Below are positions 4,750 through 64,000 of a stretch of DNA of 64,000 bases, piece after piece (positions within the stretch are counted from its first letter, which is position 1; the number at the start of each line of letters is the position of its first letter). The stretch is taken from contig JAQISU010000025.1 of the NCBI GenBank assembly GCA_029339505.1, positions 257,001 through 321,000 of the forward strand, given 5' to 3'. The position numbers and the translations under genes were made by a program. The DNA comes from Unio delphinus. Lineage: Eukaryota; Mollusca; Bivalvia; Unionida; Unionidae. Below the pieces are notes generated by a model. That model saw nothing but the letters and a program-made list of their open reading frames with translations, had not been told where the DNA came from and made no database searches.

Positions 4750-4911
4750 TCCATTACGTCCCCTCTATATAGTCTTGACATGATGCCTCCATAGATATTG
4801 TATTTCTAGGAAATAGGGTCCACCTACGAAAGAAGTCCTGACGAATTACGTGGAGACGCAACAACCAAAAAAGGGGCGCCTTAGGGGATACTGGGTATGA
4901 AAAACACGCCA
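4748..4911 (+). repeat. Dispersed repeat R1, 5' part, abutting the polymerase relic
   Basis: It carries the GAAAGAAGTCCTGACGAATT and GGGTATGAAAAACACG signatures of the R1 family. It ends at the broken 3' end of the DNA polymerase relic, so the last residues of that open frame are repeat-derived. This marks the truncation point of the virus-like relic. Confidence 0.65.
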
Positions 4912-7453
4912 AAACGCTGATCGTACTCATGTTCCCACATGTCCACCACCTGGTATCCTTGCTGTTCTAGCTTCAAACGTAGCTGACAAGTTGTCTCGTA
5001 CAAGTCTTCCATGGTTCGTTGTAAAAACTGATTTTTGATGTCACGTTGAGGGTAGCACATGGGACATCCGTGAAATAAGCATCCGTTAAACTTGTTAACG
5101 ATTTGAGGGTTTTCTAAGTCCCAGCCATGCACCGAATACGTTCCGATGGTCTTTTCGCCTCCTCCGTTGCGGGCGTGTTGGATCCATTTGTCTTCTTTGT
5201 CGCACAAGTAATGTAGCAAACGTAGGGCTTTGACAGAGTATTGACGTTTGACAAAGTTCGTCGTTTTAGGACTGATAACAGCTAGGGTATTTTCGGGCAT
5301 GAATCGTTTTTGGTACACTAAGGAACACGCTTTGGCGGTGGCACAAGCTTCTTTCAAAGGATCGATCCCTCCGTGCTCCATGAACAATTCTCGAAATTTT
5401 CCACAACAACGTCGTAAATCGCCTACGTCAGATCGACAATACTTGAACATTTCTTCCTGAAAGTCGAAGGGGTCCTATGCGTGAGTCTGGTACCAAGCGA
5501 AGAAAGCTTCTCGTTGTTTGGTACGCATGTTGTCGGGGTCGTAGTAGTGAGCCTCAGGCAAATGGGGTAGAACGGGATGTTGATTGGCTTCGGTATTGAA
5601 AAAGTGCGGAAATAACCTTTAGCCATTTCTGTCATTCCAAACGTTTTAGGCATGCGATTCAAATACATGGCCAAGTAACTCATTGAATCTTTAAACTGTA
5701 CTTGTCCTACTTGCATAGAAATGGTTTTGGCTCCGTTTAAAGTGACTTTAGAACGTTCGGTACTTTGTTTCGTATAGTATCTGTGCAGAAATTGAAAATC
5801 GTATCCGGAGAAATTGTGAGCCATTACCTTAGCATGACGATGACAATCTCCATAAAGTTTGATGTCTCCTTGACTCCACGTTTCGTCGATTTGGTCTAAG
5901 ATCCATTGGTCAAAATTAGTTAGCGTGTTCGGTCCCCGAATCCTGCTGCAGTGAGGGCAATGACTAAAGGAATCCAGGAATCCTGCTGAAGTGAGGGCAA
6001 TGACTAAAGATGGGTTCTTGGATGCACTGCTCGCACGGACGGTGAGCCACGCAGAAATTGGGAATGCGAATACCGGTCTCTTGCATGCATTCGAAGTCAA
6101 AAAAGATAAAATTCCCTTTCTTCTGGGTAATCTTCTTGTTGGAGTTGGTATTTTTGAATGAAGCATTCGTGTTCCAAGTCCACGATTTGGCGACAAATGT
6201 GACATCGTTTCTTACCTCGGTAAACGTGAAACTTGGTATTACTGGTACGTATGCCTTGTCCACAAGTATGGCATAATCTCAGAAGCTGACAAGTACTTTT
6301 CTGCTGTGAACCTTGTATCTTCAAATGTTGTTGGTAACAGGTTGGACTGACAAAAATGCGCTGAGAAACAGGGCAATGCACTCGTTCTAGTTTTTTGTCC
6401 AGAGAGGGTTGAGAGGCCAAACATCCCTCACATTTCGATCCACAATGCTTGTGTTGTTCTCGATTGTTATAACCATAGTCACATTTCTCACATATGTAAC
6501 CGTTTGGTGATGGTATCAAAATGCCCTTCGTCATGATAGACGAGGATGTATTTTCCGTCTTTGAAATCGTGGCCTCGAAACAAAAGAGGTCCACGCACTT
6601 CTTGAGGGTGTACTTTCAAGGTGTAATGTGGAGCCAAGGCGTCTTACAATTTTTGCATTTCTGGAATTCCGCAAGGGGTGCCTTTGGATATTCTCGCTTG
6701 CTGTAACAGTTTTCCAGACTCTTTTCCATTCTACCGTGTCGTTCTTGTTGGCATACGTTCGTCCCACGACGATGGCGCAGGCTAAACACATCTGGTCTTG
6801 AGGATTGTCAATTTCGACGAGGCTTCGCTTAATGCTGCGAAGGCTGTCGACCAATAACACTTTCTGCGTTGTCCGGTCCCTTGTGGAAGAGACACGTGGG
6901 TTATGAACAGTGTGGCTTTTCCATCGGTGAGGTCAAACTTGTCGTTGGATTGTTACACATGTTGAATTTTATCGATGATTTTGGAAGGTGTCAATTCTGA
7001 TGGGCTGCTAAACTTGATCCAAACGGGAGACTTCAAATTATCGTGATAAATAGAAAGTCTCAAGCGATCGTCTTCTTTAGCTTGGCAGTGCTGTTTCAGT
7101 GAAGTTAACACAGAATTCCACACCTTGGTAATGAACCCATATGTATTCTCTAAAGGTACGTTGGACTTGAAATCTTTAAACTTCACGGCGTACGTGTAAG
7201 CCGTAGTTCTAAATTTTCGAGAGGAACGCTTTCCCGTCTCTCGAATGTGATAGTACTTTTCAGGGTTTACTAAGGGTGGTGAACTTTGCTTGGACGTCAA
7301 TTGTCTGGGCCTGGATTCGGGCTCACTCGTGTCGTCTTCAAAATCACTGGCATGAATTTGAGCCAAGACTTCAGCTACTGTGCGAGGCGATACATCACGT
7401 TTCTGTCTCTTATTATCTTCTCCTTTCTCTACAACATGATACGATCTTTTCAT
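4881..7453 (-). pseudogene. Polinton/adintovirus-type DNA polymerase B, broken and 3'-truncated
   Basis: This minus-strand relic of a protein-primed-type family B DNA polymerase is read in at least five open pieces (7453-6953, 6860-6531, 6594-6097, 6263-5964 with 6205-5423, and 5450-4881). The exonuclease motifs are visible in different frames: FFDFE near 6105, HNFSGYDF near 5815 and KYCRSDVGDL near 5430. Ahead of them is a cysteine-rich region with several CxxC pairs. After them comes the FHGCPMCYP segment typical of Maverick/Polinton polymerases. The palm motifs (DxxSLYP, YxDTDS) are absent because the gene is cut at about 4911 by repeat R1. A 40-bp tandem duplication at 5938-6013 adds damage. 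The start at 7453 lies about 70 bp from a divergent TATA box. It cannot make a working polymerase. Confidence 0.85.
5938..6013. repeat. 40-bp tandem duplication inside the polymerase relic
   Basis: The segment GAATCCTGCTGCAGTGAGGG and the 20 bases after it are repeated once with a single C/A difference. The copy lies between exonuclease motifs I and II of the relic and is absent from normal family members. It is a post-integration lesion. Confidence 0.8.
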
Positions 7454-7523
7454 CTTGTCTGCAAAAAGTCAAATGACTACATTTTTAAGACCATGACCCT
7501 TGTATAGTCATGTCCGATCCGTG

Positions 7524-14762: not shown

Positions 14763-15507
14763 ACTCCACTCAAATAATTTTCTGGATTCTGCTTCCGTCG
14801 CCGGTGTATAATATAGATTACCATATTCCATGGAATTAATGATATTACAACCTCCCAGTTTAAGTTGATCATGTTCTATAGTAGAAGCTGATGGCATTAC
14901 ATAATAAATTATTAATAAAACTATATTCTATCTCTAGTGTTTTGATAGAATGTAGTGATTTTTTTCTTCTTCACGATGCAAACAATACAGGTTAACCTCG
15001 CAAGCATTTTGTGAGGGGCTGGGCGGTTACCTGTTATAGTTCATATTATCTTTGCTAGCTAAGGGACGTTGATAAACGTAATTCTATGTCGACATTTGGC
15101 ACATAAACTAATCGAAACAGTGTTTTAGAGAAGTACCGTCTTGCTGATAAACGTCACACCCTATACAAGGCGCAAATAATTGACCATTGAGATATTTTGT
15201 GACACACGTGGATTATGAAATTTGATGACTACCGCGATGTCCACGAGCCTTAACTCATTAAAAAGCTAAGATGAAGTTGGAAAATCTCCTGGGTTATACC
15301 TGTCGTTGTCTGCGGAGGCCATGCTCATTATTTCGTTAAACAATTCCAGGTACACACTTAAGCTTAACACTGGATCAGTTTATATTATTTCTGCTAGCTA
15401 TATATGTCAGCGGTCGTCGTGGACCGGATCATATCGACGACCCTTGGCATCCTTCCAGTATCTTACGCCAATAACACATGTTTCTTCTCATCTGGTTGCC
15501 GTTTATA

Positions 15508-16530
15508 AAGTGAAAAAAAGTATCACAAACAGGTTCAGGGAGATGCATAATCGCAAATAACGTAAAAAACTGACAATTAGTTTCATTGATGCGTTGTGTT
15601 TAAATAAACCAATCAGATAAAAATAAAGATAATTTTTAAATAACCAACTTGCTAAACTTCATTAAATGTTTTAAAATCCTGATGGCTAAATTTGTAAATA
15701 TTTGTTGGTCCAAAATAATTGTACGAGACACAATGAATTGTAAAAGGTGTAAACAAATTGACATTTTAAGCAAGAATAATTATTTAACTATGATCATATG
15801 CAATTGGGTAATTATATAATGCGTTTTCAAAATAATTTTGTAGACCTTATAGCGGCTATCACTGTACACTAATTGTATCTATGGAAAACTGGATAATGTA
15901 CTTATCGTACTGTATACATCAATACATTCGTTTCGTCAGTTAGTAGACATCTATGTTCCTTTCAATTAACCAGACCAGATTGATATATGAATAACCCATC
16001 TACAAGTGATGTTTTGCCCTCAAGAACCTTACGAAAACTCTAGCAATTCTTTAAAAAAATTATTCAGATTTGATGATCTACTAATTCTTGGTCTTATCTC
16101 GTTTCAATTTATTTTTCTTCCTTTATTCCTGATTTATAAATTCATACCATATCATTTTCATCGTTCTCTTTGCAAAGTTATATTTATGCTCGTTGGTTCA
16201 TTCTTTATTACTTTTGGAATACATCTTTTCATGTGGTTTCAGGTATTCTTAATTTTCATGAAGAAATTAGATATTGGTCATTCATGTAGTCTTTGTTTAT
16301 ACAGTGCATGGTAGGGCCATTTTGTTCATGGCATGGTATCTTGTACATTCAATACATTACCATAGGCTGACATTATTCCATCTCGCTTCGAAGTCATAAA
16401 CTAAACGTTTTGTATCCCTATCTCAAATTTTGATAGAATGTTCTTAACTTTGATGTCTGAAATACTAGATGCACCATCATTAATGATATGTGTTGATTGT
16501 TTTCTTGTAGCTGCTAAACTTGAAGACAGC
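15508..16530. other. No gene recognised
   Basis: AT-rich DNA. The 102-codon frame at 16006-16314 is rich in Phe/Leu/Ile, as expected from AT-rich sequence, and shows no family motif. Confidence 0.6.
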
Positions 16531-41192: not shown

Positions 41193-50496
<9,304 letters not shown>

Positions 50497-53843: not shown

Positions 53844-54476
53844 TTTACCTCACTCAATTGATGTTTTGTATCCGTCACCGGTATATTTTTAAAATGACGA
53901 CATTCCATAGAATGTAGTGATTTGGTTATCTTCACGATGCAAACTATACGGGTTAAACTCTCAAGCATTTTGTGAGGGGATGGGTGGTTACCCGTTATAG
54001 CACATATTATCTTTGCTGGCTAAGGGACGTCGATAATCTTAATTCTATGTCGACAATTGACACATCAACTGATCGAAACAGTGTTTTAGAGAAGTATTGT
54101 CTTGCCGATAAACTTTACACCCTTTACCAACCAAAATTAATTGACCTTTGAGATATTTAGTGACACGTTGGCCATAAAATGTGATGACTACCGCGATGTC
54201 CATGTGCCTTAACTCATTAAAAAGCTTTGATATGAGCGGATTAAATTTGAAAAGCTCGTGGGTGATACCTGTTGTTGTCTGCAGAGGTCATGCTCATTAT
54301 TTCAAAAATAAATTTCAGGTACACACTAAGCTTAAGACTGGATCATTTTATACTGTTTCTGCTAGCTATATAAGTCAGCTGTCGCCGTGGACCGGATCAT
54401 ATCGACGATCCTTGACATTCTTCCTGTCTCTCACGCCAATAACATAAGTTTCCTCTCATCTGGTTACAGTTTATAA

Positions 54477-54637
54477 AGCAGCAGAGGGGGCGAATCAGAC
54501 AACTTTTTTTTGTTTTTATTTTTGATTATACCCCCTCCAAAATAACACTGGACCCTTCTCGCGAAAAAATAAGTCTCTGACCCTTGTCTGAAAACATTCG
54601 CGTCGCAACGTCGTTGTCACTCACCCCCTCTGCTGCT
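54477..54637. other. Left end of the virus-like element: inverted motif pair
   Basis: AGCAGCAGAGGGGGCGA at 54477-54493 and its inverted copy (one mismatch) at 54621-54637 flank 127 bp of AT-rich DNA. The first motif lies exactly at the point where copy B stops matching copy A. It is probably (part of) a terminal repeat; the matching right end would lie beyond the window. A similar motif occurs at 10637. Confidence 0.55.
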
Positions 54638-54655
54638 AGAACTTTCAGTTCTAGG

Positions 54656-55327
54656 TTACCCGAATATTTGATCAAGTCCGATACGATATCGTGTTCGAGG
54701 GTCATGTAAATTTATTGTTACAAATCCGTGTGGGGTAGACTGAGCATGACTAAAGAAATTTCTAAATTGATTGAAGTCCATATCAGAACACCATGTCTGC
54801 CAAATATTTCGTAGCGTATGTGTATCAACGCCGTTGAATACAGCAAGCATATTACAGTTATCTCTAATCACTTTTGGAATCTGAGTGTAGCGTTGAGTGA
54901 CATAGATCACATCAGTGTTTTTATGCCTGCCTCTGGAAAATATTCTAGCAGGATTTTTTTGATTATCTAACATGACATCGTCGTATACAACTAAATTGTT
55001 GATACTTCCATCGAGGTCATTCACGGATGGCGCCTCGTCAATATCGGTTATAAATTCAATAACATCCTCGGCGGCAATCTCTGAAGCGTTTTCATTAAAA
55101 TCTTTTAGCACTTCATAGCATCGTTGATCATCTACGCTAAGGGCAATTAAATACAACTTATCCCACTTCATCCATCTCATTATTAAATTGAGCAGCAATT
55201 GCGTTTTACCGGATCCAGATGGTCCGATTATAATTGCGCGGATAGAGTTTGGTAGCGCTGCATGATGCTTCACTGGTTCTCTTGTTTTAGTCGCTGAAAA
55301 ATCAATTATATTCATATCTCTATACAT
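54656..55327 (-). CDS. Packaging ATPase, A32/FtsK-HerA type
   Basis: A 223-residue P-loop ATPase. Walker A GPSGSGKT is at residues 35-42; Walker B NNLVVYDDV is at 110-118, followed by a basic SRGRHKN segment at 131-137 and a VTQRYTQIP sensor-like motif at 143-151. Length and motif order fit the genome-packaging ATPases of Polintons, adintoviruses and relatives. The expected role is to drive viral DNA into a capsid, although no capsid gene lies in the window. The start is MYRDMNIID; Met5 is an alternative. The start codon is 5 nt from the divergent start of the next gene, so its 5' leader must overlap that gene. The frame is intact. Confidence 0.85.
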   Translation of the reverse strand: MYRDMNIIDFSATKTREPVKHHAALPNSIRAIIIGPSGSGKTQLLLNLIMRWMKWDKLYLIALSVDDQRCYEVLKDFNENASEIAAEDVIEFITDIDEAPSVNDLDGSINNLVVYDDVMLDNQKNPARIFSRGRHKNTDVIYVTQRYTQIPKVIRDNCNMLAVFNGVDTHTLRNIWQTWCSDMDFNQFRNFFSHAQSTPHGFVTINLHDPRTRYRIGLDQIFG

Positions 55328-55332
55328 AAATT

Positions 55333-55530
55333 ATGGATCTATATTGCGTGAAGTGTAAGGCGCGTACTGGCACAGATGACTTGACGACGATTACAACTAA
55401 AAATAACCGATCAGCGCTTTCTGGTAAATGCGTACAATGTAGTACAAAGAAATTTAGATTTGTTTCTAAACCCAAGGAACTCAAGGAACCTTTAAAAAAA
55501 AAAGAGGAGGTGATATCGCAGCCAAATTAG
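55333..55530 (+). CDS. Small CxxC protein, DUF5679-like
   Basis: 65 residues: YCVKCKART at 4-12, a GKCVQCSTKKFRF segment at 31-43, then a Lys/Pro-rich tail KPKELKEPLKKKEE. Two CxxC pairs (5/8 and 33/36) would bind one zinc. The pattern matches the short zinc-ribbon family DUF5679, which I recall from giant viruses and Polinton-like viruses; its function is unknown. Near the end the frame runs over TTT followed by ten A (55491-55503). The phospholipase frame begins there in the -1 phase, so this protein may be the N-terminal part of a frameshift fusion. Confidence 0.7.
   Translation: MDLYCVKCKARTGTDDLTTITTKNNRSALSGKCVQCSTKKFRFVSKPKELKEPLKKKEEVISQPN
55491..55503 (+). promoter_or_regulatory. 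Slippery T3A10 tract, possible frameshift site
   Basis: In the zinc-protein frame the tract reads as T TTA AAA AAA AAA, containing canonical -1 slippery heptamers (T TTA AAA and A AAA AAA). The frame opened by a -1 shift is the phospholipase frame, which has no ATG of its own. Ribosomal frameshifting, polymerase slippage or a simple indel would all fit. Confidence 0.5.
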
Positions 55531-55862
55531 CAAAACTCCCTGGAACCCCATGGGCAAAATACCCCGGAGAAAAACACCTTCCAGGATATAGCTACTGTGG
55601 ACCGGGAACAAGACTTGATATCAGACTCAATGATCAAAATCAGCCCCGACCCGGTGAGGAACCAATAAACGCTATTGATAAGGCCTGTCACCTTCATGAT
55701 GTATCTTATAAAAGCAGTAATCTGCAGCACAGGCATCTAGCAGATGTGAAATTAATTCATGCGTTAAATGCTATTTCTGATAAATTTTTCAAAGAAAAAT
55801 TGGCTTCCTTTTTGATAAAATCGGCTATGAAAAGTAAATTGATGTTAGGGGCTGGTAATTAA
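55503..55862 (+). CDS. Phospholipase A2 domain (parvovirus VP1-type), no start codon
   Basis: A 119-codon frame ending at TAA 55860-55862. It holds the calcium-loop motif YCGPGT (codons 31-36) and the catalytic KACHLHDVSY (codons 60-69, with the His65-Asp66 dyad), preceded by PGEKHLPG and by PINAID. This is the arrangement of the PLA2 domain of parvovirus VP1 and of PLA2-bearing adinto- and bidna-like viruses, where it opens the endosomal membrane during entry. No in-frame ATG precedes the domain; the last upstream stop is near 55470. It would have to be reached by a -1 shift at the A10 tract, by splicing, or it is a pseudogene by one indel. The integrase ATG follows 7 nt after its stop, suggesting one plus-strand transcript. 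Confidence 0.8.
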   Translation, partial: RGGDIAAKLAKLPGTPWAKYPGEKHLPGYSYCGPGTRLDIRLNDQNQPRPGEEPINAIDKACHLHDVSYKSSNLQHRHLADVKLIHALNAISDKFFKEKLASFLIKSAMKSKLMLGAGN

Positions 55863-55869
55863 TAACAAC

Positions 55870-56823
55870 ATGGAATCTATTTATTATTCCCCAAGAGGAT
55901 ACTGGAGGGGTAAATCAGCAATCCATAAACTCGCTAGCGCTGCGAAAGTGAAAAAAACCACTGCGGCTCATTGGTTATCCAAACAGGCACTATGGCAAAT
56001 TTATCTACCACCGCCTAAACAAATCAATTTCTCGCATTTTGATGTGACCGGACCCAATGAAGTTCATCAGGCTGATCTATTATTTCTGCCACATGATCGT
56101 GGTTACAAATACGCATTAACCGTAGTTGATATTGCAAGTCGATACAAAGAAGCAGAACCGTTAAAAACAAAATCAGCCACTGAAGTGGCTTCTGCATTTG
56201 AAAGGATTTATCGAAGGAGTCCTCTGCACTGGCCAAATCTGTTACAAGTTGACCCGGGCAAGGAATTTCAGGGTGCAGTGTTATCTACAATGAAATATCA
56301 CAATGTCGCTATCAGACGAGGGCATACTGCACTTCATCGTGATCAGGCCATTGTAGAACGATTTAATAAAACCCTTGCTGAGCGGTTATTTGGATATCAA
56401 TACGCAAAAGAATTCATCCAAGAAAAAAGATCCCGTGAATGGGTTAAAAGGTTACCAGCTGTGATTACTGCACTGAATAACGAGATTACTAGAACCATCA
56501 ACATGAAACCTATCAATGCGATTAAAAAGAAGTCAATACCTGAAATGGAAATTCAAAAAGATTTTAACGTTTCCCAACCAATTCTTGGTAGTAATGTCAT
56601 TGTGAGGTACTTATACGAACCAGGAGAGCTTGAGGGTGGCACAAAAAGGGCTACTGATCCTATTTGGAGTGTTACTGCACATAAGATATCTAGTATAACA
56701 CGATCTACGGGTAGACCTCCAATCTATAAACTGGATTCAACTGCCCCTCAACGGGGTTTTACTAGACAACAATTACAAGTGATACCTGAGGATACTCAAT
56801 TACCACCACATGGGCTTAACTAG
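55870..56823 (+). CDS. Retroviral-type (rve) integrase
   Basis: 317 residues. The RNase-H-fold core has Asp69 (in QADLL), Asp128 (in QVDPGKEF) and Glu163 (in QAIVERFNK), with 34 residues between the last two. VVDIASRY at 85-92 and AVITALNNE near 197-205 are typical of the family. The N-terminal part (YYSPRGYWRG...) is helical with no HHCC zinc motif visible. The C-terminal 80 residues form a small beta-rich region before a Gln/Pro-rich end. Polintons and adintoviruses use such an enzyme to insert their DNA. The frame is intact and overlaps the HNH gene's end by 8 nt tail to tail. Confidence 0.9.
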   Translation: MESIYYSPRGYWRGKSAIHKLASAAKVKKTTAAHWLSKQALWQIYLPPPKQINFSHFDVTGPNEVHQADLLFLPHDRGYKYALTVVDIASRYKEAEPLKTKSATEVASAFERIYRRSPLHWPNLLQVDPGKEFQGAVLSTMKYHNVAIRRGHTALHRDQAIVERFNKTLAERLFGYQYAKEFIQEKRSREWVKRLPAVITALNNEITRTINMKPINAIKKKSIPEMEIQKDFNVSQPILGSNVIVRYLYEPGELEGGTKRATDPIWSVTAHKISSITRSTGRPPIYKLDSTAPQRGFTRQQLQVIPEDTQLPPHGLN

Positions 56824-57085
56824 CACCCTTGCGTCTATTGCACTCAAGACAAGTCAACTTCACATTATTTCTGACATGACCGAGATTGTTATTTTTTCTG
56901 TCTACGGTGAATTGGCGAGGATCCTTATCCGAATACTGCCAACGCATTATACAATTGCAACTCGCGCAGTGATTATTCTGTTGTTGCTTCAGAGTAATTA
57001 TTAATTCAGCATCAATATCAAATTCTCGTTGTTTTTTTTTTGTCTTGTTGTTTGTAACCGGAGAGTTTTTTATCAATAATATCAT
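56816..57085 (-). CDS. HNH endonuclease-like protein
   Basis: 89 residues with a CASC pair at 40-43, FTVDRKNNNLGH at 59-70, a VRNNVKLTC segment and a CLECN pair at 79-83. This is the HNH-type beta-beta-alpha zinc layout seen in small HNH nucleases. It overlaps the 3' end of the polymerase-helicase gene by 68 nt in another frame. The overlap contains an A10 run (plus-strand T at 57032-57041), so slippage there could join the two. It may be a separate nuclease that nicks replicating DNA, or a C-terminal domain of the large protein. Confidence 0.7.
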   Translation of the reverse strand: MILLIKNSPVTNNKTKKKQREFDIDAELIITLKQQQNNHCASCNCIMRWQYSDKDPRQFTVDRKNNNLGHVRNNVKLTCLECNRRKGAS

Positions 57086-60000
57086 CTATTGTGGTGTCAT
57101 TATCATTGCTAATGATTTCATCATCGAAGACAATTCTTCGAAGTTGATTTATTTTTCGTACTCTAGACACTGCGAGATAGACTAAATTCGACCATTCTAT
57201 GCGATTATCTACCATCCAAACAGTTGTATCCGATATAGTCAATCCCTGTGAAGAGTGTATAGTTGCTGCATAACCTAGCGTCCATGGGGATTTATTAGCA
57301 CGCAATGCATCTTCAACGACATTGATATCAACCAGCACAATATCATTTAATACGAGAATCTGTCTTTGAAATCCTTCGGATTTTGGTCCTGGAATATCAA
57401 CTTCGATGTTCTGTTTTCGTGTATCCGATGGCCTATAACATAACGGTACTGGAAGTGTTGCAAATTTTTGTTTATGCAATTCAAATAACTTCATCTGAAG
57501 TGTATCCCTGACTATTTTTCTACTTGCAATGATTAAATCATTTGGTCTCCACGCTTCCCAAAACTCATTCATGGGAGTTTCCGAAATTATTTCACGGGCT
57601 ATTTCACACTGGATTTTATCCGGTTGTAATCTAATTAGTTTCTTCAATTCTTTTAATTCATTATCAAGTGATCTATGATCAGTATCAATTTCTTCATAAT
57701 AGTCTACAAAACCCTTTAGCCATTCATGGGGGGATGCACCGACAAATGGTGGAGGTTGGCCGTGATCCCCGCACATGACGACTTTTGTATTCTTCAATAA
57801 CAACCACTCAAGAAATATTTTTAAGACATCTTCTGACACTGTGTCTATTTCATCCCACATGATAATTTCAGGAATAAATTTCTCTCCCATGCGCTCAGGA
57901 GTCCATTTATCTCCCTTCCATCTAAAGAAACTATGATAAGTGCAGGCATTCACCCCTCGTTGTTTCATCTCTCTGGCGAGTCTGTGAGTCGGTGTTAGCA
58001 CAATCATGTTTGGATTGGAAACACGATATAACTCAATTGCCCGGGTTGTTTTTCCTGACCCACCACAGCCGTTTAAATAAACTGTTTTATATCTACAGAT
58101 TGGATCAGAAATCGGTGGTGCACTAGAAAATTCTGAACACTGATTGCTTTCTAAGTAATTATTTTCAATGGTAACATCTGCTGATGGAATATAATCATGA
58201 AGCATTTCCTTCTTAATTCTCCATGACCCCCAATTCTCGTTGCCAGTAGCCTTAAAATCAGCCATTTTGCTATTTATGTAAAATGAGTCAGTAGCAACTC
58301 TAACTGCGGTGGTAGGAAATCTATTGATCATTGAAAACAGATTGATAGAAGCATAACCAAGCATAGAAGCTCTCAAATATGTGTACTGCTGATGGTATCC
58401 ATCAGTGTAAGTAACAATTGTACCCAATTTGGTTCCATCTGACATAAATGCGTCCTTACGATTGACATATAAGCCCCTATTCGTTAAATCTTTGATTACA
58501 AAATCGTATTCAGCATTGTCTATAATCAATCGTGAAGAATATCTCGTATTATCATCTTTGCCACCTTGGGTAAATTTACCGATTATTCTTTGTCCAAGAT
58601 CTTTTGCTTCATTGTTTCTGATTTCAAATAACTGTCTGGACCAATCCATGATTTGTTGTTCATTAAAATCAGGAAACAGTTTTCGCTCTTCGCTAATTAT
58701 TTTTTCTAGATCAGGTTGTGGTAACCAGACTGATTTCTGTGCTTGATAGGATATAATTGCTTCACTGACAATTAATGATTTTAACATCTTACAATCAAGC
58801 ATATACCGTAATAACACTATTGGCATCCAGTGTTTTTCAGACATGTGTTTACCAATCCAAAGATAACTACACGGATGAAGTCCTTCAGCCATTTCAAATG
58901 ATACTACACAAGCGAATCCGGTTAAATCGAAATGTGGCAGTGGTCCATTAATAGCAACACGGGTCATTTCGTGTGTAGGGTGTCCAAATCGTTTGAAATA
59001 TTTCTCACACTCTCCATACCCAAGAAAACTTCCTGGATAACATGCAATCATATCAACTGAAATAACGGTATCAGCGGTGTATTTTGTGTTCCATAATCCT
59101 CCATGGCTGTATTCAAGACAGGACAATTTGACATCTGATAAGAACTCACTTCGGGTTGGTTTCCACGCGTTTTTCTTCCTAGCAAAATGTGCTACAACTG
59201 ATGGAAGTGTAAAACAGTTTGCTAATAATTGATCGTTGTCTTCCCCCCCAGAACTCTGGGGAGAAAATTCACTAGCTAGTTGTTTCATTTGATTATGCAG
59301 CTCTTCAGTACGGTACAATTCTCCGTTGGGCCTTACAAACTGATCAAATCTACATTCTTCGTCTGAAGTACTATGAAATAGCCACACTGACACAGAATCG
59401 TTTTTACTCAAATGGTAAATAGCATCAAATAATTTCTGCTCTGAAAAAAACTCTTCGGTTCCAAACAGATATTTTACGGTTCTATCCCGTGGGAATATTG
59501 TTACTGCAGATGACCACGCGTGTGCGTTATGATCAATAATTTCAATGGGAGCTCCCTGTGATTTATATTTCGATTCGTATAATACTTCTCCGGTGATTGT
59601 CCTTACCGATATTGGAAATCTCAATGATGTTTCTAATTTAGCTATATCTTGAATTGTTGCCCCATGCTGTTTCACTGTCAGTTCCCATTCGGTTATTTTT
59701 TTTCGTCTTAGATCAGTTAGTTTATTTTCCCGGGACGCATTTGTGAAGTGTTCTATTATTCGTGTTGCTACACAATTGAGCCCTGTCGAATATTTCATGG
59801 GTGCTAGTTTTGAAATATCAGGTTTTTCATTGAGCGGATATATCCCGTAAACAACTACTGTGACAGGATAAGATCTTTCATAGTAGGGTTTATCAAGTCC
59901 AGTCAAAATTCCTGGTTTTGAATCCTGAGTCACAGTGACAGTTTTTTTGTCCTTAAGAATAGGCTCGTATTTGTCCCTAATGATCCATTTTCCATTATCA

Positions 60001-60284
60001 CGGATAAGGAATTTTATTCGAAAAAAATTTCTTTCTTCCCCAAGACGTGAGATTATCACTGCTGCTTTTTCATCATTCATGGTAGCGTCAACAACACCAT
60101 CAATTCGAAATGTTGACCAACAATGAGCTGCCCCATCACGCTTGAATTCATTAAAACAGTCTCTGATTTTACTAATCAAGGTTCTATCAAGAATTTTATT
60201 CTTTGGTGTATCAGAAACTCTATCAAGATTGAATTGAACACTTTTCCAGGGCTTAATTTTAGATAATCTCTCGAACTCCTCCAT
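57018..60284 (-). CDS. PolB-like polymerase fused to SF1 (Pif1/RecD-type) helicase
   Basis: An intact 1088-residue frame. Residues 1-400 are of unknown fold; no exonuclease motifs were recognised. A PolB-type palm follows: motif A VDMIACYPGSF at about 410-420, a possible motif B equivalent near GQRIIGKFTQGG (564-575), and motif C VRVATDSFY at 661-669, in which TDS stands for DTDS. The C-terminal 370 residues form an SF1 helicase: Walker A GCGGSGKTT at 739-747, motif Ia near TPTHRLA 764-770, Walker B IIMWDE at 807-812, motif III CGDHGQPPPF at 838-847, motif V HSSQGLT at 1010-1016 and motif VI YLAVSRV at 1036-1042. The expected role is replication of the element by one multifunctional protein. 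The start is 24 nt from a divergent gene. I know PolB and SF1 helicases as separate genes in most related viruses, so the fusion stands out. The palm assignment rests on two motifs only. Confidence 0.75.
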   Translation of the reverse strand: MEEFERLSKIKPWKSVQFNLDRVSDTPKNKILDRTLISKIRDCFNEFKRDGAAHCWSTFRIDGVVDATMNDEKAAVIISRLGEERNFFRIKFLIRDNGKWIIRDKYEPILKDKKTVTVTQDSKPGILTGLDKPYYERSYPVTVVVYGIYPLNEKPDISKLAPMKYSTGLNCVATRIIEHFTNASRENKLTDLRRKKITEWELTVKQHGATIQDIAKLETSLRFPISVRTITGEVLYESKYKSQGAPIEIIDHNAHAWSSAVTIFPRDRTVKYLFGTEEFFSEQKLFDAIYHLSKNDSVSVWLFHSTSDEECRFDQFVRPNGELYRTEELHNQMKQLASEFSPQSSGGEDNDQLLANCFTLPSVVAHFARKKNAWKPTRSEFLSDVKLSCLEYSHGGLWNTKYTADTVISVDMIACYPGSFLGYGECEKYFKRFGHPTHEMTRVAINGPLPHFDLTGFACVVSFEMAEGLHPCSYLWIGKHMSEKHWMPIVLLRYMLDCKMLKSLIVSEAIISYQAQKSVWLPQPDLEKIISEERKLFPDFNEQQIMDWSRQLFEIRNNEAKDLGQRIIGKFTQGGKDDNTRYSSRLIIDNAEYDFVIKDLTNRGLYVNRKDAFMSDGTKLGTIVTYTDGYHQQYTYLRASMLGYASINLFSMINRFPTTAVRVATDSFYINSKMADFKATGNENWGSWRIKKEMLHDYIPSADVTIENNYLESNQCSEFSSAPPISDPICRYKTVYLNGCGGSGKTTRAIELYRVSNPNMIVLTPTHRLAREMKQRGVNACTYHSFFRWKGDKWTPERMGEKFIPEIIMWDEIDTVSEDVLKIFLEWLLLKNTKVVMCGDHGQPPPFVGASPHEWLKGFVDYYEEIDTDHRSLDNELKELKKLIRLQPDKIQCEIAREIISETPMNEFWEAWRPNDLIIASRKIVRDTLQMKLFELHKQKFATLPVPLCYRPSDTRKQNIEVDIPGPKSEGFQRQILVLNDIVLVDINVVEDALRANKSPWTLGYAATIHSSQGLTISDTTVWMVDNRIEWSNLVYLAVSRVRKINQLRRIVFDDEIISNDNDTTIDDIIDKKLSGYKQQDKKKTTRI

Positions 60285-60308
60285 ACTATAATTAAAACAA
60301 GTATTTAA

Positions 60309-60650
60309 ATGAAAGATTTAAGTATAATGAATCATTGCAAATGGCTTATGATTGGATCAGTGACACCGTGTAACAAATCATGCAGAAATGAATTCTGTTG
60401 GTATCATATGCAAAGCTTTCGCCGTGGAAGCCGAGGTCCGTTACCCTGTATTCAATGTGGGGTTGGGGTCAGGGGGAGGTCGCAATTATGCATTATGTGC
60501 GGCGGAAAACGATACAGGGAGCTAAAACGCTATTATGATAAAAAAATAAAAAATACTGCCATTGACCCCAACGATGACAAAATAATAAAGACTGCTCAAG
60601 ATTATATACAGAGACTTATAATTAAACCAAACAATGAATTAGAAAAATAG
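60309..60650 (+). CDS. Cysteine-rich zinc protein, unknown
   Basis: 113 residues. A first cluster has C10, C21, C25, C30 and H33; a second has CIQC at 47-50 and CIMC at 61-64 with a GVGVRGRSQL spacer. A basic, helical C-terminus follows (KRYRELKRYYDKKIKN...). The two zinc sites suggest nucleic-acid or protein binding. It starts 24 nt from the divergent polymerase-helicase gene, and a 48-codon ORF follows 13 nt later. I do not recognise a named family. A second Met at residue 7 is possible. Confidence 0.6.
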   Translation: MKDLSIMNHCKWLMIGSVTPCNKSCRNEFCWYHMQSFRRGSRGPLPCIQCGVGVRGRSQLCIMCGGKRYRELKRYYDKKIKNTAIDPNDDKIIKTAQDYIQRLIIKPNNELEK

Positions 60651-60663
60651 TGTTATTATACAA

Positions 60664-60810
60664 ATGAACCAAGAATTCAGACCTCACCCCTCCGTGCTTG
60701 TTAATTATGAAGCATTCCGTAATAGTATTATCAGAAAATTCTATTTTCGTATGTCAAAATACAGTACACGCGTACCGTCTATAACACCAAGGGAGACTAC
60801 TCTTAAATGA
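60664..60810 (+). CDS. Small ORF, 48 codons, unknown
   Basis: The open frame MNQEFRPHPSVLVNYEAFRN... ends at TGA 60808-60810, 13 nt after the preceding gene. It is rich in Arg, Ser, Tyr and Phe with no known motif. Position and strand suggest the same transcript. It could be a short real protein or chance. Confidence 0.3.
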   Translation: MNQEFRPHPSVLVNYEAFRNSIIRKFYFRMSKYSTRVPSITPRETTLK

Positions 60811-60835
60811 TAATAACCAAGGGAGTTATCATTGT

Positions 60836-61690
60836 GATTTAGCGGCTTAGTATTTCTTTTTAGGAAAAGATATATTTTCTTTTTTTTTAGTGTTTAAGTC
60901 AAATATTCTGTGTCACGTGCGATTAATGCGTATTTCATAACATAGGATGTGATCCAGAGATACAGGCATTACAGGATAACACACGTGTATACTTTCTCCC
61001 TTAGATTGTGTTAACTTGTTTAATGGGTATTGTGATTCAGCGCTGGGCATTGTTTTGTAAGAAAAGACATGTTTTCAAACAATTATATTCTTTGTTCTAG
61101 TGTTTAAGTCAAATATGCTGTCTCATTTAAATACTGTGAAACACCATTAATAAGTAATTCAAGAAAATAAAATAGCATACTTGCGGATTGATGTATTAAT
61201 TCCCTTTATATACTCTCTCACTTAGATGGTGTCGAGATGATAAGGGAGGGAATAACAACCCCTCCCACCTACTCTTATATGTTTCTACTATTATGTGTAA
61301 ATATAAGTGTTTTTAAATGTCTGTATGTAGACTATCATTTGTATAATTTAATATGTAAATATTGAATAAAGATTTTAAAAAAAAGAGGATGCCGACATGG
61401 CACCTATAAAAGATGTACAAATGCTACATCTATAAAAATTACATTACAGTATGGCGTGGGTTATTTGCCCTTAAATTGTGATTCAGCGGCTTGGGATATA
61501 ATTAATTAGAAAAGAAATCAAATATAAAATGTTTTCAAACGATTATATTCTTTTTTTTTAGTGCTTTATGCAAATATTCTGTCTCATTTAAATACTGTGA
61601 AGCACCATTAACAAGTAATTCAAGAAAATAAAATAACACACTCTGTGGATTGACGCTGCTGTATTAGTCGCCTTATATACTAAATGAAAG
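60836..61690 (+). repeat. Three copies of a ~200-bp repeat
   Basis: Copies at about 60836-60990, 61027-61230 and 61475-61690 share GTGATTCAGCGGCTTGG, AAGAAAAGA.AT.TTTTC, an AAACGATTATATTCTTTTT run before TTAGTG, TCAAATATTCTGTCTCATTT and GTAATTCAAGAAAATAAAAT segments. Between the second and third lies a 3'-UTR-like piece with AATAAA at 61364 followed by an A run at about 61378-61384. There is no ORF. Function is unknown; they may be regulatory or terminal repeats of the element, or an unrelated insertion. Confidence 0.7.
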
Positions 61691-61856
61691 GTTTAAAGCT
61701 GGGGCTTTCAAAGGCCAATCCGACCAGTCAAAAAATAACCCACGCCATTGAAACGTTTGCGTGGTTGACTTTTACTCAATCATGCAACCGGGTTTAATTT
61801 CATGGGTTGCTTTGATTGGTCGGATTGGCCTTTGAAAATCAGCCCCGTCGTTTCAT
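61684..61856. repeat. Inverted repeat (MITE-like)
   Basis: The left arm 61684-61729 and right arm 61814-61856 share CAAAGGCCAATCCGACCA / TGGTCGGATTGGCCTTTG and outer ATGAAA / TTTCAT ends. The 84-bp spacer holds CCCACGCCATTGAAACG. The size and form suggest a miniature inverted-repeat element. Confidence 0.7.
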
Positions 61857-61960
61857 GTTTGTGATGTCTGTGCCGTCCCATCATCATTACATCATCATAA
61901 TCCATATTACATCATCATTGAATTATAATCCATATTACATCATCATTGAATTATAATCCA

Positions 61961-62118
61961 TCCTTAATTAAGTTAATTAAGTATATGTATACCTACAATC
62001 TGAATGGAGATATATACGGTATTTGTGCTGTCCTTAATTAAGTTAATTAAGTATATGTATACCTACAATCTGAATGGAGATATATACGGTATTTGTGCTG
62101 TCCTTAATTAAGTATATG
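61961..62118. repeat. 70-bp tandem duplication
   Basis: Units 61961-62030 and 62031-62100 are identical; a third copy is broken off after TCCTTAATTAAGTATATG. Each unit holds TTAATTAAGTTAATTAAG and ends ATATACGGTATTTGTGCTG. Exact identity implies a recent duplication. It lies just upstream of the CRE palindrome and the ORF at 62159. A smaller ATCC/ATTACATCATCATTG repeat precedes it at 61880-61955. Confidence 0.95.
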
Positions 62119-62120
62119 TT

Positions 62121-62130
62121 GTGACGTCAC
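62121..62130. promoter_or_regulatory. CRE/ATF palindrome
   Basis: GTGACGTCAC, a perfect palindrome 29 bp upstream of the ATG at 62159. The same ten bases occur in the promoter region of the older relic at 9021. It is a likely binding site for host CREB/ATF-type factors. Confidence 0.55.
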
Positions 62131-62158
62131 CCCAAGCATATCTTCTGGGCGGTCTAAG

Positions 62159-62386
62159 ATGGCGTTTGCCACGTTAGGCCTCCCTTCCGGAGATGTATGT
62201 TTCGGGTTTCCCTTGGGCTTACTTGGATGTGAAGGCAACCAAGGAGTTCCAAAGATGTGTTGTCGTATATATGTAACCTCTAGGTCATTTCACGTAAACA
62301 TACCCTCTTGTGATTATAACCCGTTATTTGACGAGTTAGATTCACTCTTAGGGGAATATGTTTCCGGTGAATGTAAATATAAATGA
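62159..62386 (+). CDS. Small protein, 75 residues, unknown
   Basis: The start context AAGATGG is good. The protein is MAFATLGLPSGDV..., with a Gly/Leu/Phe-rich first half (FGFPLGLLGCEG), a Cys pair (MCCR) and an acidic second half (LFDELDSLLGEY). AATAAA follows the stop within 10 bp (near 62391), which fits a short independent transcript with a polyadenylation signal. No family was recognised. Confidence 0.45.
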   Translation: MAFATLGLPSGDVCFGFPLGLLGCEGNQGVPKMCCRIYVTSRSFHVNIPSCDYNPLFDELDSLLGEYVSGECKYK

Positions 62387-62727
62387 CCTAAAATAAATAC
62401 CATCCATGGATGTAATTAGCTCTCCATCACATTTGGGTTACCCCGTATGGTGTTCAAAAATGAATTACCGGCCAAAACGTGGATGCACATTGGGTAACCC
62501 CAGAATGAATTATAGGCTAATAGAAACGGTCATAGGGTCATATCTCAAAGAGCAAAAACAAAAAAAAAAAACATTCTGATATAAAACAGAAACAGAAAAA
62601 TGCTCTAACAAAGGACCCTATGAAAGACACAAAGGCCTAATAAGGGACCCAATGAATGCAAATAGAACCACAACGGCCTATATCAAGGGGGCCAAATGAC
62701 TGATAATCGCTCATCATGGTTGATATT
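62387..62727. other. No gene recognised
   Basis: It contains a loose repetition of GGGTTACCCC/GGGTAACCCC segments near 62447 and 62504 and AAGGACCCTATGA/AAGGGACCCAATGA segments near 62613 and 62643. Otherwise nothing. Confidence 0.5.
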
Positions 62728-62950
62728 TATTTTTGTCTGCATTTATATTTATATATACAGACTGAATTTTAAAAAATATATTTATATATACAGAATTAAT
62801 TTTAAAAAATATATTTATATATACAGAATTAATTTTAAAAAATATATTTATATATACAGAATTAATTTTAAAAAAGATATTTATATATACAGACTGAATT
62901 TTTAAAAAAGATAGTTATATATACAGACTGAATTTTTAAAATATTAACGG
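62728..62950. repeat. 33-bp AT-rich tandem array
   Basis: About six to seven units of TTTATATATACAGAATTAAT followed by TTTAAAAAATATA; the outer units have ACTGAATTTT variants. Because 33 is a multiple of three, a frame stays open across it (62696-62905), but the product is only the repeat. It lies just upstream of the ORF at 62996, so it may be a replication origin or promoter region, or just a satellite. Confidence 0.9.
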
Positions 62951-62995
62951 CTCATTTATTTTTGAAAAATGAATTAGAAATATGTATTATCATAT

Positions 62996-63352
62996 ATGAA
63001 TTCTGAAATTATGAATAGCATCATAGTTGAAATTGCAAAATTGAAAAATCAGAATATTAGATTGTCAGATGGGTTAAATCCTGATCAAATCAAGTCGGAT
63101 TTTCAGGATATAGAATACGGAGTTAGCACTAACAAGTATATGTTGCCAAAGAAATATGCACTCATCAAAAAAATTCAAAATTCTATTCGAGACTCTCTTG
63201 CATTTTCCAGTGAAGTAGATGTGTTTGTTCCGTTATATACTATCGTGGAAGGAATACGAAAAGAATTGGGTAACGAATATGAATTGAAAAAGGAAGTTAA
63301 TTCTAAAATTAGAAACTTACGAGCGTTAATTCAAGAAAATGAACTATTTTGA
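62996..63352 (+). CDS. Helical protein, 118 residues, unknown
   Basis: MNSEIMNSII..., Lys/Glu/Ile-rich and probably alpha-helical or coiled throughout, with DGLNPDQIKSDFQDIEYGV near 25-43. No known motif. A second Met at residue 6 is possible. It precedes the last ORF of the window in the same direction, with about 210 bp between that hold T-rich runs and an AAAATATTTCAC direct repeat near 63443 and 63466. Confidence 0.55.
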   Translation: MNSEIMNSIIVEIAKLKNQNIRLSDGLNPDQIKSDFQDIEYGVSTNKYMLPKKYALIKKIQNSIRDSLAFSSEVDVFVPLYTIVEGIRKELGNEYELKKEVNSKIRNLRALIQENELF

Positions 63353-63563
63353 TTGACCAGCCCCTCAATATATTTTGTCAGACAGTAAAATCTCCTTGAG
63401 ATTTTCATTTTTTTTTTTGTCATTTTTTTATTGAATCAGTGAAAATATTTCACACTGCGAAAATAAAAATATTTCACAGCAATAAAAAATTGGACCGTTA
63501 AGGATGGAATCATCGATGGGAAAAATTGTTTTACAATTGAAAAATGGTTTCTGATTTCAAATA

Positions 63564-64000
63564 ATGGTCAATGAAGCATTAACGACCCGATTAGCTCGTG
63601 AGCGACTAGATGCAATTAAGAAATTTATACCAATTCGCGACTCTGTCAGGAATAAACTGCAAGAACGACAGAGTTTACAAACTGATTTTGCTCTGGGGTC
63701 TGAAGAGTTGTTTAAACCAGTAACCACAGCAACGAAAGGAGTAGAGCGTGCTTTACTGGGAGATGGTCCCGAGACGGGAAAATTTGTTATTGGTGAGCTT
63801 GAAAAACTAGCAGCGAAAACTGAACAAACTGAAAAAACTGATCCGAAAAAAACGACTGTTTCTCTGCTGAATAAATTTACTGATCATGCTAAAATATTAA
63901 TAAAAAAACCTAGTTTATTGAAATCAAAGGATTATCAAGCCTTTGGTAATTTTGCTGCTCAAAGCTATAATTCAAAAAAAGATTTTTTAAAGGACGAGTA
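63564..64000 (+). CDS. Unknown element protein, C-terminus cut by window end
   Basis: Open from ATG 63564 to the window edge (145 codons). The N-terminus MVNEALTTRLARERLDAIKK is followed by DFALGSEELFKPVTT and a Lys/Thr/Glu-rich middle (EQTEKTDPKKTT), with no stop. It is probably helical. A decayed homologue at 9790-10614 (minus) keeps the LTTRLA, DSVR and PVTT blocks and suggests the full protein continues with a Pro-rich PPPRYEEHP-like part. It is therefore a conserved gene of this element family; function is unknown (structural or minor virion protein is a guess). Confidence 0.7.
   Translation, partial: MVNEALTTRLARERLDAIKKFIPIRDSVRNKLQERQSLQTDFALGSEELFKPVTTATKGVERALLGDGPETGKFVIGELEKLAAKTEQTEKTDPKKTTVSLLNKFTDHAKILIKKPSLLKSKDYQAFGNFAAQSYNSKKDFLKDE

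Follow-up and report, generated by a model that had tools for sequence, protein, structure and literature searches.

The right part of a 64,000-nucleotide (nt) stretch of the genome of the bivalve Unio delphinus (GCA_029339505.1, contig JAQISU010000025.1; hereafter the window, C27:257001-321000 of the 2.5-Gb assembly G000) carries a compact row of virus-like genes, which raises the question whether they form one integrated element and, if so, of what kind. Positions without a prefix are window positions; C labels denote contigs and L labels fetched loci. The original prediction, made from the letters of the window, described a mostly intact, recent endogenous element beginning at 54477, related to Polintons yet distinct from them, with an A32-type ATPase, a DUF5679 protein, a phospholipase A2 (PLA2) frame, an rve integrase, an HNH protein, a PolB-helicase and a zinc protein. 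The analysis presented here indicates, with a probability of roughly 0.8, that the row of genes is the left portion of a right-truncated copy of an about 16-kb endogenous Polinton-like element, one that likely replicates as linear DNA with a predicted polymerase-helicase of the protein-primed type and likely owes its insertion to its own rve integrase.

A genome search with the ATPase gene revealed at least 150 near-identical copies; because all 150 candidates scored are full length and stop-free, this number is a lower bound. Twelve ATPase loci, the window's own copy among them, were read in detail. All 12 start at the position equivalent to 54477, as the original prediction had placed the terminus, their flanks are all different, and each carries the start motif AGCAGCAGAGGGGGCGA with at most three substitutions. 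The right ends of seven other copies were read, both ends in six of them, and the terminal motif is present in inverted orientation in all seven. In the six full copies, about 15.6-16.4 kb in length, the two terminal repeats, 162-215 bp long, agree with each other within a copy at 98.1-99.5%. All six are bounded by 5-bp direct target duplications (CCAAG, GTATT, TCTCA, ATATG, GTTTG and AAAGA), and when the seven duplications of these copies and of a palindromic copy described below were paired wrongly, none of the 42 pairings agreed. The duplication is thus 5 bp, not the 6 bp of Polinton/Maverick sensu stricto; 6 bp is given as typical of rve integrases and 5-6 bp for Polinton-like viruses (PLVs) (PMC12220804; this and the other papers cited are represented by excerpts). 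Together with the integrase gene, these duplications point to the rve integrase as the inserting enzyme.

No hexon, penton or maturation protease is visible in the window, as had been noted, and the first of the two alternatives given, that such genes lie to the right, proved correct for capsid and protease. Locus L014 (C27:320001-330000, 10 kb of which the first 1 kb still belongs to the window) encodes on its plus strand a double-jelly-roll capsid protein (domain match 5.3e-18), a protease matching the structure of African swine fever virus pS273R (9.3e-6) and several further proteins without a family. The match of the protease to adenain is weak (0.45), and that to Pfam C5 (0.0035) is below the cut-off. 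Together with the termini and repeats, these genes support a recent endogenous element that is Polinton-related yet distinct. Position 64000 is the window edge only, and the element continues past it. Similarity of the window copy to the others ends at window-equivalent position 68997: all seven other copies match L014 no further than L014:5997 and then have about 1.8 kb of their own sequence up to the right repeat. This right part, terminal repeat included, is missing from the window copy, and the right-hand inverted motif that had been expected, although present in the other copies, is absent from C27:320001-340000 and from the window. Because no right repeat follows and the match stops early, the window copy is right-truncated or interrupted; it is also not intact in that its HNH gene and helicase lie in different frames. 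The right 1.8 kb of L016 and L017, the only two copies listed for frames, holds a frame of 456-470 amino acids (aa), and the 456-aa gene has no usable family in Pfam or PHROGs.

It could be asked whether the genes belong to unrelated neighbouring insertions that mimic one element, a view with which the gap at 60811-62960, 2.1 kb rich in repeats and devoid of long frames, would be in keeping. This view is almost certainly wrong and is refuted by the recurrence of the same genes between matching terminal repeats and target duplications elsewhere; moreover, the gap region itself is present in the rearranged copy C61, and the capsid and protease genes follow on the right. Within the non-coding part, an inverted repeat with 27-nt arms, 96% complementary, lies at 61706-61837, and a 33-bp tandem repeat, of which the C61 copy seems to have more units, at 62744-62944.

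The outermost 161 nt of the element, folded as single-stranded DNA, are more stable than shuffled sequence (z = -5.55; 0 of 200 shuffles equally stable). The arms of this terminal hairpin, with at most three substitutions each, recur in all 12 left ends at a spacing of 142-144 or 238-240 nt and in six of seven right ends, and in the stem of L011 two changes preserve one base pair. By analogy, the hairpin recalls the ends of parvoviruses.

Three observations on termini stand beside these results. Stretches 54281-54478 and 15312-15510 form an 88% repeat whose similarity stops exactly at the left terminus of the element. At L013, in window orientation, two terminal motifs 653 nt apart (668 and 1321) accompany one left end, perhaps an insertion beside an older end. 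At G000:C136:5391867-5436296, three ATPase copies are spaced 21,880 and 21,881 bases apart, likely because the element and about 6 kb of adjoining sequence were duplicated in tandem. Head-to-tail concatemers were rejected for this array, as its 21.88-kb unit includes roughly 6 kb of sequence separating the right end of one copy from the left end of the next.

The capsid gene differs from the left end in how alike the copies are. Across 2183 alignment columns running inward from the ATPase, identity among nine copies is 98.3-99.8%, and three others form a second group, 95.3-96.7% identical to the first. The capsid genes are mosaic between copies: among eight other copies with a match, capsid protein identity falls to 71-72% in two and 81% in one, and the former two reach a synonymous difference (pS) of 0.42-0.43 although at the left end both agree with the window copy at 96-99%. 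In L038 and L039 the divergent island spans roughly L014:2100-4200, where identity is 73-88%; ahead of the island it is 94-98% and behind it 90-99%. In L041 another divergent stretch, distinct from this one, lies further left, and three close copies dip to 95-97% within the capsid gene. The ratio of nonsynonymous to synonymous differences (pN/pS) of the capsid gene is well below 1, at 0.23-0.51 for the window copy against seven others (eight of nine capsid stretches tested; L040 was dropped for lack of a frame above 300 aa, and L042 was left out, its stretch having no capsid match).

These data bear on whether the element is a Polinton-type transposon amplifying inside the nucleus, its capsid genes no longer used. 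That the ATPase copies are chromosomal, that the element is known here from genes alone, and that L040 has a broken capsid gene and the L042 stretch showed none would all suit such a transposon. It is nevertheless quite unlikely, given the capsid pN/pS, the capsid frames above 470 aa open in six of eight copies examined, and the exchange of capsid genes between lineages, all of which point to use of these genes. This exchange and the capsid, protease and ATPase genes are consistent with virion formation.

The replicase frame extends over 1099 aa from stop to stop, against a longest frame of 223 aa in 200 Markov simulations of the region. The C-terminal third of its 1088-aa frame is a Pif1-type superfamily 1 (SF1) helicase (aa 731-1058), which bears out this half of the predicted PolB-helicase. 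PolB-like motifs A and C were read by eye at D411 and D666, and a vOTU-like Cys/His motif at C171 and H252/H255; the PolB half is accordingly termed a predicted polymerase, known from motifs only, and the vOTU-like domain before the palm a candidate. Motif C reads ATDS in the window; in Tlr1-like elements its first Asp is described as lost (PMC11071308). Protein priming would follow family precedent, together with the motifs. Eight of the 11 other copies match the replicase from its start in one open frame, those in L023, L026 and L032 being broken. Helicase and HNH are split at an A-run in the window copy and four others. The replicase pN/pS, also well below 1, is 0.29 for all pairwise comparisons among 11 frames longer than 900 aa (11 of 12 copies; L023, with a longest frame of 663 aa, was dropped), which speaks for purifying selection.

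The PLA2 frame lies in the -1 register to DUF5679 in 11 of 12 copies and shares one frame with it in none, no ATG precedes the PLA2 domain in any of the 12, and the heptamer U UUA AAA is kept in all of them, including L004 with its interrupted A-run. PLA2 is predicted to be made from DUF5679 by -1 ribosomal frameshifting. An assembly error or shared decay in place of programmed frameshifting is possible, if doubtful: the change is located at an A-run, no stable stem was found downstream of the heptamer (RNA fold, z 0.02, the folded stretch starting inside the run), L012 has a further register with a small deletion beside the site, and the PLA2 frame of L003 is shortened. The nearly constant register and the lack of a start codon argue against this alternative. 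A homopolymer assembly error in particular was rejected as the origin of the split, as the register is kept in L004 despite its interrupted run. PLA2 is known from animal Mavericks (PMC5803895) and Polintons (PMC4642659), while no mention of DUF5679 was found in the open-access literature searched.

Among the 150 ATPase places, two were spotted by eye as having inverted neighbours within 20 kb. The first, C80:5868013-5879786, forms a palindrome of 11,774 bp that has a left end on either side and whose 5788-bp arms are 11 substitutions and two gap columns apart and enclose a 22-nt loop. It is flanked on both sides by ATAAT, its own 5-bp duplication, which makes it likely that replication produced the palindrome and that it was inserted in this form. 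A host-level inverted duplication after integration is unlikely for C80, since ATAAT on both sides is as expected from insertion of a ready palindrome, which moreover reaches at most two bases into the flanks. Such a host event would nonetheless agree with the differences between the arms, by which the copy is not brand new, and with the second case, C61, where the right end is replaced by an inverted left end that extends over about 1.7 kb at 100% identity. As C61 has no target duplication, host rearrangement is an equally likely origin there.

The replicase itself may have been exchanged. One integrase-motif scan of genome contigs yielded a sole contig, JANQFH010000027.1 (L001), a likely eukaryotic virus-like contig filed, probably by misbinning, in an Oligoflexia (bacterial) metagenome-assembled genome. 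Its integrase is 58% identical to that of the window, and its integrase and zinc gene stand on either side of the replicase as in the window, the zinc gene being oriented with the replicase in L001 and against it in the window. The L001 replicase is a DNA_pol_B_2 protein (2.2e-15) that also matches endonuclease VII below the threshold (1.2e-4) and has no significant similarity to the window replicase (best E 5.2); it is spread across three overlapping frames and therefore broken or unpolished. Shared flanks around a different replicase are the trace that replicase exchange would leave. Viral contig scans for relatives of the element found none, and tblastn against phage sequences gave nothing useful. 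Elsewhere in the window, broken remains on the minus strand at 4881-7468 (PF03175 3.4e-4, below the cut-off, in one of four frames) look like a second, different Polinton-type PolB and have no match to the L001 polymerase.

A replication cycle can be proposed for the Polinton-like element. Linear DNA would be replicated by strand displacement from hairpin-bearing ends, the A32-type ATPase would package it into double-jelly-roll capsids matured by the protease, and PLA2 may assist entry, for which parvoviruses are the precedent. The integrase would join the element ends to staggered host cuts, and palindromic molecules that have a left end on either side would arise by a strand switch in replication and be inserted likewise. 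Several points count against this account. Transposition in trans is another way in which the copies could have multiplied, and the ATPase pN/pS of 0.016 is biased because the copies were picked by ATPase score. The stems of L010 and L012 contain mismatches, and ATDSFY was not found in one of 11 other copies (L029). The part of the replicase before the helicase, in three pieces, had no Pfam match, the presumed PolB palm had none among solved structures, and single-sequence models were poor (pLDDT 32 for the palm and 52 for the vOTU region); because of this, the PolB half that had been predicted rests on motifs read by eye. The absent stem behind the heptamer, the C61 copy and the thin evidence of one contig for replicase exchange belong here as well.

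We tentatively consider, at somewhat less than even odds, a bolder account in which a recently infectious Polinton-like animal virus with parvovirus-like hairpins and a frameshift-made PLA2 filled the genome, swapped replicase and capsid cassettes, and had its snap-back products archived by the integrase. If true, the genome would document the replication mode of such linear viruses. With near-identical copies, 5-bp duplications, mosaic capsid genes and a snap-back molecule, genome data allow tests of virion use and mode of replication in Polinton-like viruses. As relatives of the integrase and zinc gene that flank the replicase stand around a conventional PolB in another contig, replicase exchange in this virus group would be directly visible.

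The features of the element in the window are given in Table 1. Frames were searched against Pfam and PHROGs, and all those named in the original prediction are present where it had placed them. The 253-aa protein occurs in the stretches of seven of nine other copies and in part in two. Outside the element, the window contains a reverse transcriptase remnant and a MAM-domain frame at 44987-45385 (6.9e-15), which fit an animal; the MAM domain is typical of animals.

Table 1. Features of the element in the window, with the matches or properties on which each assignment is based
Feature	Position	Strand	Basis
Left terminal inverted repeat	54477..54691	.	162-215 bp in other copies
Terminal hairpin, 17-nt stem	54477..54637	.	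arms 54477-54493 and 54621-54637
A32-type packaging ATPase	54656..55327	-	Pox_A32 6.9e-11
DUF5679 protein	55333..55527	+	Pfam 1.2e-13
Predicted -1 frameshift site, U UUA AAA heptamer	55491..55497	+	in DUF5679 frame
Parvovirus-type phospholipase A2 domain	55470..55862	+ (-1 frame)	PF08398 2.7e-11
rve integrase	55870..56823	+	1.6e-7 (31.9 bits, just below cut-off 32.6); residues D69, D128 and E163 present
HNH endonuclease	56816..57085	-	phrog_1035 6.5e-10; Pfam 0.021, below cut-off
Replicase	57018..60284	-	AAA_19 7.5e-11 for helicase part
Cys-rich zinc-type protein	60309..60650	+	36% identity over 73 aa to L001 gene, E 1.7e-13
118-aa protein, no family	62996..63352	+	placed in element by position only
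253-aa protein, start	63564..64000	+	runs on to C27:321316; capsid genes follow outside window

Among the matches listed from the open-access literature, none dealt with a Polinton-like element of an animal genome that has a helicase-fused replicase. Animal Mavericks (for instance Sf Maverick 1 and 2) share with the element the ATPase, integrase, PLA2 and adenain-like protease (PMC5803895). They have, however, a B2 polymerase with endonuclease VII and a chromodomain on the integrase, whereas the element has a helicase-fused replicase and its integrase no chromodomain match up to E 1, a difference that also holds for adintoviruses with their C-terminal chromodomain (PMC11071296). Polinton/Maverick sensu stricto has terminal inverted repeats and an adenain-type protease as the element does, but a stand-alone protein-primed PolB (pPolB) with exonuclease in place of the helicase-fused protein without a PolB profile match. 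Bidnaviridae combine PolB with NS1 and a jelly-roll VP; in the element, no match to parvovirus NS1 was found among the open reading frames scanned (window, L014 stretch and right-end gene), and a double-jelly-roll capsid and SF1 helicase are present instead. OmPLV of Oxyrrhis marina has an SF1 helicase fused to pPolB, as predicted in the element, but in the reverse domain order, with a tyrosine recombinase and, in the excerpt, no rve integrase detected (PMC12721341).

Closest in layout are the Tlr1-type PLVs of the pPolB-S1H group (Tetrahymena Tlr1, transpovirons), in which, as in the element, an SF1 helicase ends a large replicase. Typical of the group are also a protein-primed PolB palm with TPR1/TPR2, a vOTU domain ahead of it and a C-terminal HNH or GIY-YIG domain; for the palm and the vOTU domain, the element offers the motifs read by eye. 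Tlr1-like elements have a helicase-fused replicase with a C-terminal HNH (PMC11071308), and HNH likewise shares one open frame with the helicase in most other copies of the element (seven of 11; 933-1192 aa, two cut at the N-side). Tlr1 also shares the rve integrase, ATPase and capsid proteins (PMC11071308, PMC4642659), so that the pPolB-S1H features present in the element comprise the C-terminal SF1 helicase, HNH, rve integrase, packaging ATPase and double-jelly-roll capsid. Unlike the Tlr1-type PLVs, the element has a polymerase palm known from motifs only, carries a parvovirus-type PLA2 and DUF5679, and resides in an animal, which places in an animal genome a Tlr1-type helicase-fused replicase that the excerpts report from protists and transpovirons.

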